Virus record (IMG/VR): IMGVR_UViG_3300010392_000276
Span: 1 to 46,194 of that record
From: a virus
Length of the DNA: 46,194 nucleotides
Direction: 5' to 3' (one strand)
Positions 4,743 to 46,194 of this stretch are shown here, in pieces. The notes beneath the pieces are model-generated. The model made no database searches and had not been told where the DNA came from. It saw only the letters and a program-made list of their open reading frames with translations. How positions within the stretch are numbered: the stretch's first letter is position 1; each line of letters opens with the position of its first letter. The translations under genes and the position numbers were made by a program.

Positions 4743-5061
4743 AGCATACAGCTTTCATGACGGTGAGCCGGTGGACGGCGCGGTTTTGGTGTTCGCTCCC
4801 AACTTCCGGCATGCAAAAAAGATTGCCTATCCAGTTGTTCGCGGATGGACTGGCTGTGAATACCTGGATGTTCAAGGACACCGGCTCTGGAATGATGCCT
4901 GGCTGAAACAGCACGCAGCTGATCAGAAGAAGCTGGCAGCCGGTGAGCCGCACGTTATCGACAATCCGCCAGCCTGCAAAGGCTGCGAACTCTGGCATGA
5001 CGAGCTGGAAGAATCCGGGTTCTGCGAGAGCTGTGCCGAAGAACAGGAGGAAGCCGCATGA
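4732..5061 (+). CDS. Hypothetical protein with four-cysteine finger, 109 aa
   Basis: The start at 4732 has a strong G-rich Shine-Dalgarno (aaagggggcgggg) just upstream, so I prefer it over longer in-frame alternatives inside the previous gene. Near the C-terminus CKGCELW...GFCESC forms two CxxC pairs about 14 residues apart, typical of a small zinc finger. It lies directly before xis. Function unknown. Confidence 0.65.
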   Translation: MNLKAYSFHDGEPVDGAVLVFAPNFRHAKKIAYPVVRGWTGCEYLDVQGHRLWNDAWLKQHAADQKKLAAGEPHVIDNPPACKGCELWHDELEESGFCESCAEEQEEAA

Positions 5062-5269: not shown

Positions 5270-5536
5270 TTGAACAAAGCAGAGCAGGAACTTTTTGAGA
5301 AGCATTTCCGCGAACTGAAGTTACAGGGGCGCCTCAGTCGAGAAGATGCCCTGGCTCTCTGGCTGGCCGGCAGGCGTAGCCATGGCCCTGTGGTTGCCGA
5401 GCTTCACCGGGCGGAAGTGATGGGCGGCGGGGTTCACGAATCATGGAAGGACTATCCGCGGGAATATGGATTCTTCCGGATGTATCGGGATGAAACAGCC
5501 TGCAGCGATCGAGTCGCGGAAAGCCCGGAAGGATAA
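5270..5536 (+). CDS. Hypothetical protein, 88 aa, TTG start
   Basis: Starts with TTG at 5270, chosen because an AGGAGG Shine-Dalgarno ends five bases upstream; no ATG with a comparable site is present. Helical N-terminus (ELFEKHFRELKLQG), then a basic-acidic C-terminus. It sits between xis and int and ends one base before the integrase start. Not recognised. Confidence 0.65.
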   Translation: MNKAEQELFEKHFRELKLQGRLSREDALALWLAGRRSHGPVVAELHRAEVMGGGVHESWKDYPREYGFFRMYRDETACSDRVAESPEG

Positions 5537-5537
5537 T

Positions 5538-6680
5538 ATGGCACCACGGAAACGGCTTCGAAGGAATGCGGATCTTCCCCCGAACCTATACACCAACAAG
5601 GTCGGGGCGGTCACTTATTATCGGTACAGGCGTCCGGACAATGGCCGGTTTCACAGCCTGGGCACGGTCAAGGGCACGGCAATCGCTGATGCCCGCCAGC
5701 TGAACGCCATCCTGCTGAAGGACCCGGATCGCATTGGCCAGGTGCTGGGGACGGCGGAGCAAACAATGGCCCACCTGATTGGCCGGTATCGGAAGGAATA
5801 TCTTCCGGATCAGAACCTGGCGCCGAGCACCGTGAAGCTGATTGGCTACAGGCTGAATCGATTTGAAAAGGATCTGGGCCAGATGCTGGTGGAATCGTTC
5901 GATGTAAAAGCGGTGGCTGAATATCTGGATGACAACTTCCAGCGGGACAGCTACATCAAGCACCGGACCACCCTCACCGATCTGTTCACGTTTGCGCAGA
6001 TGAAAGGGCTGTATCCGTCCGACATTCCCAACCCGGCCGGGGCCACCTATGCGAAGTCAGGCTATGAGAAGCAACGCCAGCGGCTCACCCTGGAACAGTT
6101 CAAAGCCATTTATGCGATTGCCCCGGAATGGCTGCAGGTTGCCATGGAGCTGGGCCTGGTTACACTGCAGGGCCGGATGGAAGTGATCAACATGCGCTTT
6201 GCAGATTACGATGAAAAGGCCGGGACGCTCCAGGTAGTTCGTGAGAAGGTCAAAAAACATGAGCACGCTTTCCTGATTATCGAAAGCCCGCGGTTGGCGA
6301 AGATTGTTTCCCGGGCCAGGCGCTCCGATATCGCCAGCCCGTTTATCGTTCACCGAGATCCAGAGAGGCGCAACAAGGCCAAAGACCGCCAGCACTGGTC
6401 ACAGCTTACCCCGAACCATTTCAGCTCAGAGTTCAGGCGCGTGCGGGATGAGACAGGTCTATTTGACGATGTGCCCAGGGAGAAGCGGCCAACCTTCCAC
6501 GAAGTCCGGGCGCTGGGCTCCTGGCTATACAAGAAACAGGGCTTTGATAACGAGGGGTATGTGCAGCCGCTGATGGCGCACGCTGACGAGAAGATGACAG
6601 AGCATTACCAGAAGGGGCACGAACAGCAGTGGGTTCGTGTTAAAGCGGAGTTGGATGTGAGCGGGGTTTTTGGGAAATGA
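5538..6680 (+). CDS. int: Tyrosine integrase (lambda Int type), 380 aa
   Basis: Site-specific recombinase for attP x attB recombination. Residues 1-60 resemble the arm-binding domain (basic start, YYRYRRPDNGRFHSLG), 75-165 the core-binding SAM-like domain, and 180-370 the catalytic domain. Catalytic residues visible: Arg213 in QGRMEV, a Lys in KVKKHEH (237-240), His321/Arg324 in HEVR, His348 in MAHAD and nucleophile Tyr357 in TEHYQKG. The ATG at 5538 follows a GGAAGGATAAT ribosome site. The attP core lies about 700 bases downstream, separated by two unknown genes. Confidence 0.95.
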   Translation: MAPRKRLRRNADLPPNLYTNKVGAVTYYRYRRPDNGRFHSLGTVKGTAIADARQLNAILLKDPDRIGQVLGTAEQTMAHLIGRYRKEYLPDQNLAPSTVKLIGYRLNRFEKDLGQMLVESFDVKAVAEYLDDNFQRDSYIKHRTTLTDLFTFAQMKGLYPSDIPNPAGATYAKSGYEKQRQRLTLEQFKAIYAIAPEWLQVAMELGLVTLQGRMEVINMRFADYDEKAGTLQVVREKVKKHEHAFLIIESPRLAKIVSRARRSDIASPFIVHRDPERRNKAKDRQHWSQLTPNHFSSEFRRVRDETGLFDDVPREKRPTFHEVRALGSWLYKKQGFDNEGYVQPLMAHADEKMTEHYQKGHEQQWVRVKAELDVSGVFGK

Positions 6681-7354: not shown

Positions 7355-7403
7355 CACCTTGACATGGTAGAGGTCCCCAGTTCGAATCTGGGTGGTCCTA
7401 CCA
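7355..7403 (+). other. attP: attP core: 3' part of a tRNA-Val(GAC) gene
   Basis: The sequence reads as the anticodon arm (loop TTGACAT, anticodon GAC), variable loop, T-arm (CCCAG TTCGAAT CTGGG) and acceptor end with CCA of a tRNA; the 5' half is absent. Phage integrases commonly recombine in such tRNA 3' ends, restoring the host gene. The anticodon stem is imperfect in the phage copy (GGTAG 3' arm), so sequence identity with attB probably begins in or after the anticodon loop. Position next to int and at the end of the tail genes matches lambda att. Confidence 0.85.
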
Positions 7404-44435: not shown

Positions 44436-44699
44436 TCATGCCGCAGACTTTCTTGATTGGCGATATTCGAAGTTTTCCTGGCGCAGCTGGGCATCCGTTA
44501 CCTGCCCGCCGGTCAGCGCTTCGATTACCTGGCCATAAGAAGTTTTCCGCTGGCCGAAAACCTCGATGATCTCGGTTTCAGGCAGAACGCCAATCTCAAA
44601 CCATTTCTTCACGGCTTGAGGGCTGCGATTGCAGGCGCGTCCGATCTCGCTGAACGCGCCGTAACCGAGAATCTTGTGGGCTTTCTTTAAACTGGTCAT
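44436..44699 (-). CDS. cro: Cro-like repressor (YdaS-type HTH), 87 aa
   Basis: HTH in AFSEIGRACNRSPQAVKKWFEIGVLPE (about 14-42), the YdaS/Cro-like form with a W in the recognition helix region. First gene of the leftward operon and divergent from cI. It would repress cI and tune early transcription. Confidence 0.82.
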   Translation of the reverse strand: MTSLKKAHKILGYGAFSEIGRACNRSPQAVKKWFEIGVLPETEIIEVFGQRKTSYGQVIEALTGGQVTDAQLRQENFEYRQSRKSAA

Positions 44700-44793
44700 A
44701 AGGCAAGATTAATCTAGCAGTTAAAACTTTGCAAGCGGAGTTGAAACTACCATTGGCCTGATTTAATTATCGGGGTGAGATAAAGTTCCCGGC
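44700..44793. promoter_or_regulatory. Divergent cI/cro promoter-operator region
   Basis: Two copies of the dyad AGTT-N2-AACT lie 20 bp apart, AGTTAAAACT (44719-44728) and AGTTGAAACT (44739-44748), on the same helix face. AGATTAATCT (44706-44715) is a third, different palindrome. Possible -10/-35 elements overlap them (TTGAAA at 44741 for cI; TTGCAA reading left for cro) but are not close to consensus. These are the likely CI/Cro operators. Confidence 0.65.
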
Positions 44794-45465
44794 ATGAAAC
44801 TTGATACAGATTTACAGAAGAAAGCGTTCTCATCGCGCCTTAATGAAGCCGCTAAAGCGGCTGGCCTGCACCACTATGGAATGTATTCGGATCTGGCCAG
44901 ACACTTTGATATGTCCGTGGCCGGGGTTCGGAAGTGGTTCACTGGTGATGTGATTCCATTACAAAAAATCGAGCAGCTGGCACTGTATTATCGTGTCAGG
45001 CCGGAATGGCTTCGGAATGGCACAGGGCCAATGCGGGAAGTCCAGGGCATCGATCAGGACGGCAGGCTGCAGCAGGTCGAATTGCACAACATCCCCCTGG
45101 TGAATGCCGAGCAATGGAAGGATTACGCCAACGGCCAGCTCCAAACTTCAGACCTCCCCACCGTCTTGGCTACCGGGAAAATGAATCCAGGGTGTTTCGC
45201 AATACAGGTTGAAGATAACTCGCTATCGGATCGCGTACTTAGAGGTATGTATGTAGTGGTGAATCCCTTTGAACGCCCGGGGCCCAACGATCTGGTGGTG
45301 GCTTATATCAATGAATCGTTCGTCAGCGGGGCGCTGGCAAAGCGGGACACCTATCAGATTATTCCACCAAACACCGATTTCCGGCCCGTTGATCTGGGCC
45401 ATGAGCCCGACATTCTTGGCGTTATGATCTCGGTAGTTCAACAAAACTTGAAACAACCGTCATAA
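44794..45465 (+). CDS. cI: CI-type repressor with degenerate S24 peptidase domain, 223 aa
   Basis: N-terminal HTH (about 28-75, MYSDLARHFDMSVAGVRKWFTG ... RPEWLRNGTGPM) plus a LexA/S24-like C-terminal fold (CFAIQVEDNSLSD, VVVNPFERPGPNDLVVAYI, PPNTDFRPVDL). Ser143 is in the nucleophile position. By eye-alignment with LexA the catalytic Lys (VKRL) falls at Gly179 (SGAL), and the Ala-Gly cleavage pair is absent near residues 100-110 (PLVNAEQWKD). It probably maintains lysogeny but may not cleave itself. Confidence 0.88.
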   Translation: MKLDTDLQKKAFSSRLNEAAKAAGLHHYGMYSDLARHFDMSVAGVRKWFTGDVIPLQKIEQLALYYRVRPEWLRNGTGPMREVQGIDQDGRLQQVELHNIPLVNAEQWKDYANGQLQTSDLPTVLATGKMNPGCFAIQVEDNSLSDRVLRGMYVVVNPFERPGPNDLVVAYINESFVSGALAKRDTYQIIPPNTDFRPVDLGHEPDILGVMISVVQQNLKQPS

Positions 45466-45547
45466 TTTACACAAGTTTACAATCCCCCCTTCCGCTTATA
45501 GTCAGTAACTGAGCATACTATCATCCTAAGCGACACATTCTGGTGCA

Positions 45548-45590
45548 TTGCCAGATTTCCACGGATGGATTACTGTATCCATATACAGTC
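45548..45590 (+). promoter_or_regulatory. LexA (SOS) box overlapping a sigma-70 promoter
   Basis: TACTGTATCCATATACAGTC at 45571-45590 fits the LexA consensus CTGT-N8-ACAG exactly and matches the extended E. coli box at 17 of 20 bases. A -35-like TTGCCA (45548-45553) lies 17 bases before TACTGT, so LexA would cover the -10. An AAGGAG ribosome site and GTG at 45608 follow directly. Expected to be off until DNA damage. Confidence 0.85.
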
Positions 45591-45607
45591 AAAAAAAGGA
45601 GTTTTGC

Positions 45608-45790
45608 GTGACCTTCCTGAGCCTTGACCTCCGCACCGACACTTACACCTTCCTTAATGCCGAAGGTCAGGCCGTATCCCTCTCCCCTTCCCAGGTTTTC
45701 AACTATGAGCCGGCGCTGGAAGCACTTCCTTTAGAACACCAAAGCCTGATTGCTCATAAGATGGTAATAACTGCAACTAAATCTGCATAA
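45608..45790 (+). CDS. LexA-controlled small protein, candidate antirepressor, 60 aa
   Basis: GTG start with AAGGAG six bases upstream. Small acidic protein: TFLSLDLRTDTYTFLNAEGQ, then a hydrophobic stretch and a helix (LEHQSLIAHKMVITATKSA). No known family. It is placed directly downstream of cI and right after the SOS box, with no other SOS-type gene. Known small LexA-regulated antirepressors (186 Tum, Salmonella Gifsy/Fels Ant proteins) are of similar size and place; the role here is inferred. Confidence 0.7.
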   Translation: MTFLSLDLRTDTYTFLNAEGQAVSLSPSQVFNYEPALEALPLEHQSLIAHKMVITATKSA

Positions 45791-45857: not shown

Positions 45858-45892
45858 TTGCGAACCTTTTACTCTGAGTTTAAACTCGGAGT
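45858..45892 (+). promoter_or_regulatory. Promoter and operator of the luxR-type operon
   Basis: TTGCGA (45858-45863), 17 bases, TAAACT (45881-45886) form a moderate promoter. Over the -10 lies GAGTTTAAACTC (45876-45887), a perfect 12-bp palindrome that extends to a 22-bp dyad ACTCTGAGTT...GGAGT (45871-45892) with one mismatched pair. Its core AGTT-N2-AACT equals the cI/cro operators. AGTTTTAACC (45820-45829) is a weaker copy upstream. The phage repressor probably controls this operon too. Confidence 0.65.
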
Positions 45893-45913: not shown

Positions 45914-46194
45914 ATGAACCAGAAATTCACAAACACAAAAATCGAGCTTGGGGCAGATGCCGAATCTCTGAGCGGCCAGCAGCGGATTGTTCTCCTGATG
46001 GTGTGCATGGGCCTGACCGACAAGATGATTGCCAAGGCGATCAATCGCAGCCCGGAAACCGTTAAAACCCATATCAAAATTCTGTTCTCTCTCTTTGGCG
46101 TTGATACCCGGGCCGGCCTGGTCCGTGAAGCCATTCTCCACAAGATCGTTGTTCAGGTGGCCGCTGTGTTCCTGGCCGCCCTGATGATGCCTGC
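45914..46194 (+). CDS. LuxR-type HTH protein with C-terminal membrane segment (5' part)
   Basis: The ATG has GGAGG nine bases upstream. The protein opens with a short acidic stretch, then the complete LuxR/GerE HTH: LSGQQRIVLLMVCMGLTDKMIAKAI followed by NRSPETVKTHIKILFSLFGV, in order, and a helix to the membrane segment. The frame runs off the window end and resumes at base 3 of the left end, giving 124 residues in total. It is first in the rightward operon and probably senses or acts at the inner membrane; no receiver or ligand domain is present. Confidence 0.9.
   Translation, partial: MNQKFTNTKIELGADAESLSGQQRIVLLMVCMGLTDKMIAKAINRSPETVKTHIKILFSLFGVDTRAGLVREAILHKIVVQVAAVFLAALMMP
46068..46194. 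repeat. Terminal direct repeat, right copy
   Basis: Exact copy of bases 1-127. Joining the ends restores a continuous 124-codon gene and an operon without interruption, which supports a true circular molecule rather than two chance copies. Confidence 0.95.

Follow-up and report, generated by a model that had tools for sequence, protein, structure and literature searches.

In the Gifsy-1, Gifsy-2, and Gifsy-3 prophages (GfoR/GfoA and kin), small antirepressors under LexA control free uncleaved repressors from DNA, and Tum of phage 186 and AntC of phage N15 are cited as earlier antirepressors under LexA or SOS control, according to the accessible text of PMC3121763. In the TF-smORF modules of Vibrio and Aeromonas phages, small homologue-less proteins inactivate CI without cutting it (PMC10432266, accessible text). 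We analyzed a region of a marine bacterial virus for which our preferred reading, with a probability of about 0.68, is LexA-controlled antirepression by a 60-aa protein, p60, acting on a CI that does not cleave itself, the SOS input having moved off the repressor. Such a switch would be of a kind already known; what sets this one apart is that p60 looks different, the S24 domain of the repressor appears retained but dead, and the p60 gene lies inside the immunity region.

The locus belongs to an IMG/VR virus record, and the whole stretch of 46,194 nt that we analyzed is called the window. Because an exact 127-bp repeat occurs at both ends (1–127 = 46068–46194), the genome is probably complete at about 46,067 bp; it is probably also circularly permuted or terminally redundant, although the record is listed as a virus contig whose ends are not specified. 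The window encodes an integrase (5466–6680), a terminase, a tape measure protein, a DnaC-like loader, and a replication initiation protein. Downstream of the integrase, positions 7360–7402 (GTTCGAATCTGGGTGGTCCTACCA) look like a tRNA gene's 3′ end and are probably an attachment site; no complete tRNA was identified by ARAGORN. The only match of the window’s DnaC in genome_contigs was a Marinobacter MAG (56% identity), which makes Marinobacter or a neighbor the likely host. In our reading, the virus is a lambda-like temperate siphovirus, probably one of Marinobacter, and the region analyzed is its immunity region. In lambda, cro stands on one side of cI, and on the other come the gene in the rex place and, after it, a left-operon promoter that has an operator of its own. 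The immunity layout of the window corresponds to this plan. A cro-like gene (44436–44699, minus strand; 87 aa; PHROG 35, transcriptional repressor, E 2.4e-6) precedes cI, and a gene for a small HTH protein of the LuxR type, which has a hydrophobic stretch toward its C terminus (45914–46194, continuing across the end repeat to 221, plus strand; GerE E 1.7e-9) is the first of a left-operon-like row.

The block of cro, cI, LexA box, p60-like gene, and luxR-HTH gene is shared by the window and two further loci. One, L024, is a viral contig reached through luxR; its proteins are 86% (Cro), 69% (CI), 62% (p60), and 86% (LuxR) identical to those of the window, and its box is CTGTATACTCATACAG. The other, L030, comes from a Marinobacter-group genome, the only one of 124 in the Marinobacter MAG group matched by a two-CI profile. 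It has the same gene order, a 63-aa ORF, and the box CTGTACAGTTATACAG; its identities are 59% for Cro, 34–35% for CI, and 42–45% for LuxR. More distant kin of the LuxR-type protein occur in a further locus, L002. CI alone had no match in viral_contigs, and the CI pair and the p60 pair, as separate queries, each matched only the L024 record. Searches of genomes with CI gave 1/124, 1/163, 2/390, and 1/369 matches, with 7/124 at a looser limit.

The cI-like gene (44794–45465, plus strand) encodes 223 aa with an N-terminal HTH and a C-terminal S24 fold, the combination of the lambda CI type, and matches Peptidase_S24 (E 2e-7) and a PHROG “transcriptional repressor” family (E 4.5e-21). With a mean pLDDT of 59.7, the model of CI is of low quality and was used solely for the LexA-like match of its C-terminal half, which superposes on LexA (3k2z_A; Z 11.6, rmsd 3.0, 106 residues) and on lambda CI (1kca_A; Z 11.3, rmsd 2.3, 91 residues). 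An earlier note on this DNA had described an S24 fold that keeps Ser143 and lacks the catalytic lysine, and our analysis bears this out: the Ser/Lys dyad is incomplete, with Gly179 in the place of the lysine. When a profile of the three CIs was aligned with UmuD′, Gly179 fell on the first Lys of FTVKKL, which we take to be the catalytic Lys97. The note’s further statement that no Ala-Gly pair is present stands for the hinge, where VNAEQW of the window aligns with VQAGxW of four intact CIs and neither Ala-Gly nor Cys-Gly is found, but not for the HTH domain, which holds the remaining pairs (A23-G24 and A43-G44).

The same losses recur in the relatives. In the four intact CIs, which come from related loci, the hinge reads VQAGxW or IQAGQW, and these proteins also carry the motif G-x-S-M as well as FKK or LKK. 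The corresponding hinge is VNAEQW in the window, VAPEQW in L024, and IEPSEY in L030. The serine position falls in DNSL in the window and L024 and in DNAL in L030, and the lysine position in VSG in the window and L024 and in LAG in L030 (register of the lysine from the UmuD′ profile alignment). Lysine and hinge site are thus lost in all three CIs, and in L030 the catalytic Ser has become Ala. Having lost both its catalytic Lys and the Ala-Gly pair of the hinge, CI is predicted to be unable to cleave itself.

A LexA box, CTGTATCCATATACAG (45573–45588), begins about 107 bp past the end of cI and overlaps the −10 element of a promoter, TTGCCA-17-TACTGT (45548–45576, plus strand), upstream of p60. 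The near-perfect box that the earlier note placed over the promoter of a 60-aa gene is indeed a single strong site: it is the only one in 46 kb with three or fewer mismatches to TACTGTATATATATACAGTA, and none of 100 shuffled sequences contained such a site. The bare pattern CTGT-N8-ACAG, for which 0.44 occurrences would be expected, is present three times in the window; apart from the box itself, both copies are within ORFs. The promoter is absent from the list of a stricter promoter scan; its layout recurs in L024 and L030, with the same −35, 17-bp spacer, TACTGT, and LexA-box spacing at all three loci (41 bp spanning −35 through LexA box). With the box lying over the −10 and kept at three loci, p60 is predicted to be under LexA control. 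A host-like LexA would be expected to recognize this motif, as the L030-bearing genome carries the box CTGTATATAAAAACAG 20 bp upstream of lexA. In that 4.7-Mb genome, ACTGTA-N6-TACAG occurs at four places, one of them upstream of the 63-aa gene, and a backwards control pattern occurs at one. LexA-type boxes also stand about 20 bp before tyrosine recombinases in two Marinobacter-group genomes (L046 and L047); these recombinases look like integron integrases, a family assignment made by eye.

The gene for p60 (45608–45790, plus strand), the predicted antirepressor, looks real, because it starts with GTG preceded by AGGAG, has a relative in L024 with 62% identity, and has diverged from it at about 26 of its 43 synonymous sites, against 36 of the 137 nonsynonymous ones (Fisher p = 8e-5). 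These proportions indicate that p60 is under purifying selection. The L030 63-aa protein shares only 28% identity with p60, and pairwise BLASTP was not significant. We nevertheless take it as a diverged p60 homologue, because it occupies the same position and its global alignment score of 33 with p60 was equaled by only 2 of 5,000 shuffles (17 of 5,000 for the L024 protein). Between the window and L024, pN was 0.27 for p60, 0.18 for CI (0.28 in its linker), and 0.08 for both Cro and LuxR. CI and p60 thus evolve faster than their neighbors, in the way that partners might. Such a pattern does not prove contact, and it could instead reflect loose constraint.

The earlier note had called p60 an orphan, which holds for Pfam, NCBIfam, and PHROGs, none of which gave a match above cut-off, and for 50,697 phage records searched by tblastn, but no longer for the gene as a whole, given its relatives in L024 and L030. 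Alone, p60 had no match in viral_contigs or genome_contigs, the p60 pair matched none of the 124 genomes of the G001 group, and the p60 triple matched one of the 124 (G029, already in the profile); the L030 63-aa protein had no match in phages. Across the order, 3 of 390 genomes matched, at E 0.017–0.047; with no CI or box nearby, these matches were judged to be chance. A DinI assignment was rejected, since neither Pfam nor NCBIfam gave such a match at E ≤ 1, as was a toxin or other known family, with nothing above cut-off in Pfam, PHROGs, or NCBIfam. The p60 model (mean pLDDT 89.5, from an alignment of two sequences only) has three strands followed by helices. A sequence search of the PDB gave one chance-level match, and with Foldseek none of 1,204 viral and none of 750 PDB matches (lists at E ≤ 10) reached E ≤ 0.001; the best fold match otherwise had Z 3.3 and rmsd 2.8 over 45 residues. 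These lists contain no known antirepressor, an absence that excludes nothing.

We compared loci with degenerate and with intact-looking CIs for the presence of the box. CTGT-N8-ACAG follows cI at all three degenerate loci (at 84, 108, and 117 bp) and at none of 14 intact-looking loci, including L057, over 400 bp past cI (324 bp being available in L005). The contrast suggests that box and p60 go with a degenerate CI; it is suggestive rather than strong because the 14 controls are not independent and amount to about six types, L005, L006, L008, and L009 being near-identical, as are L037 and L038, and L002, L010, L013, L043, and L045 making up one type. One of these controls, L002, has a DnaC 70% identical to that of the window and combines an intact-looking CI with a LuxR-HTH gene, with no box between them; the LuxR gene alone therefore does not accompany p60. 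The count leaves aside loci with an interrupted CI frame (L004), a cut-off sequence (L007), no S24 domain (L033), an HTH only (L041, L042, and L044), or no recognized CI (L003, L015, and L020 among others), together with the distant L036, which has Ser and Lys-like residues and no LexA-like site on the same strand within 1.5 kb of its end. L042, which falls outside the clean split, has CTGTATTCGCAAACAG about 115 bp upstream of its HTH match, which does not belong to an S24 repressor.

Candidate operators flank the repressor gene. Two palindromes lie between cI and cro, AGTTAAAACT (44719–44728; kept in L024), which falls between the −35 and −10 of a cro promoter read by eye, and AGTTGAAACT (44739–44748; one mismatch in L024), and a third, AGTTTAAACT (45877–45886; one mismatch in L024), lies over the luxR promoter. 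These are the only three occurrences of AGTTNNAACT in the window, against 0.40 expected, and all are in the immunity region; the p60 promoter has no exact AGTTNNAACT site. The operator call rests on this count, because the best 13-mer shared between the two operator regions was not above shuffles in the window (matched by 10/60) or L024 (7/60); the figure was 1/60 in L030. In L030, another shared motif, ATACTATTG[AG]TAT, occurs between cI and cro (4894–4990) and before luxR (5969–6091), as though operator and repressor had changed together; one shuffle in 60 did as well.

According to our preferred reading, CI and/or Cro would occupy the AGTTNNAACT sites at the cro and luxR-operon promoters and keep the prophage silent, while host LexA, bound over the −10, would keep p60 off. 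DNA damage would lead to LexA cleavage and p60 synthesis, and p60 would then bind CI, perhaps at its degenerate C-terminal domain or its linker, so that both operators are derepressed. The SOS input would have been transferred from the repressor to the neighboring gene at the lambda rex position, because CI lacks the parts for self-cleavage and p60 is predicted to be LexA-controlled. That p60 binds or inactivates CI we infer from the pairing of box and degenerate CI together with precedent. Counting against the reading are the small number of such loci, only three, and the failure of the family, phage-record, and fold searches to link p60 with any known antirepressor. The interpretation offered by the earlier note thus gains partial support, in that its two sequence premises, a CI without cleavage parts and a LexA box on the promoter, hold. 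A more specific version, tentative and put at somewhat less than even odds, is that the self-cleaving domain decayed yet was retained as the surface on which small antirepressors of a new family, encoded in the rex position, dock, with LexA instead of CI reading the SOS signal.

Other readings assign p60 a different or lesser part. It might be an SOS-timed accessory, such as a modulator of RecA or LexA, a division inhibitor, or an exclusion or lysis-timing factor, with CI inactivated in some other way. The rex place is often home to accessory genes. SOS-controlled phage genes, moreover, include some that are not antirepressors, such as the dinI homologue in the Gifsy LexA operons (PMC3121763, accessible text). 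We consider this unlikely, since p60 matches neither DinI nor another family in Pfam, PHROGs, or NCBIfam and the pairing of p60 with a degenerate CI would go unexplained.

Readthrough from the LexA promoter into luxR, which would make the LuxR-type regulator the effector and p60 secondary, agrees with the lack of any terminator-like site between the two genes in the window scan; in L024, both terminator-like sites are inside cI. However, luxR is served by a separate promoter that bears an operator-like site, and in L030 a weak terminator-like hairpin (6005–6017) stands between the genes. In addition, selection acts on p60 as a protein, and the arrangement in L002 sets a LuxR-HTH gene beside an intact-looking CI with no intervening box. 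All of this makes the reading doubtful. Finally, CI could still be cleaved through a nonstandard site and base, leaving p60 merely to fine-tune induction; Ser143 is kept in the window and L024, and Lys183 is nearby in the window. This we regard as very improbable, given that L024 has Arg at the place of Lys183, L030 has Ala at that of Ser143, and none of the three proteins retains an Ala-Gly pair in the hinge.

LexA-controlled antirepression thus remains our preferred reading. In lambda, rexA and rexB lie between cI and the left-operon promoter in the same direction as cI, as p60 does; p60 differs in having its own predicted LexA-controlled promoter and an unrelated-looking product. N15 AntC belongs to another phage type and another gene place than p60. 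The likeness to it is that of an SOS-controlled antirepressor of a nonproteolytic repressor (as cited in the accessible text of PMC3121763 and PMC10432266). The Gifsy prophages have a small antirepressor gene directly under LexA and a repressor that stays uncleaved on induction, and both features are predicted for the window. In contrast, the Gifsy repressor is short (136 aa in LT2) and without a cleavage motif, and its antirepressor is encoded away from the immunity region, after a dinI homologue (both from the accessible text of PMC3121763), whereas the window CI keeps an apparently dead S24 domain and p60 adjoins cI. Phage 186 likewise has a LexA-controlled antirepressor, but Tum has 146 aa with a DinI-like half (as given in the same text), whereas p60 has 60 aa and no DinI match; the earlier note’s appeal to 186 Tum and Gifsy as similar logic is apt. 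The C-terminal domain of 186 CI also matches the window CI model (2fjr_A; Z 7.7, rmsd 3.9, 93 residues), which may be a mere common arrangement. The TF-smORF modules resemble the locus in their small homologue-less protein, for p60 a predicted CI inactivator, and differ in being SOS independent, their CI being autoproteolytic and their small gene being driven by a transcription factor (PMC10432266, accessible text). Antirepressors of the PF03374 type, distinct from p60, are described in the accessible text of a Marinobacter phage paper (PMC8424206), and the accessible parts of the open-licence literature gave no antirepressor under LexA control, either from a Marinobacter phage or from the rex position.

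If our reading is true, LexA-controlled antirepression would appear to have been invented independently in marine phages. CI and p60 would then offer a small, tractable protein pair for studying how a repressor shifts from self-cleavage to inactivation from outside. The locus also suggests a rule for mining further cases, namely a CI with a degenerate S24 domain and a LexA box just downstream.
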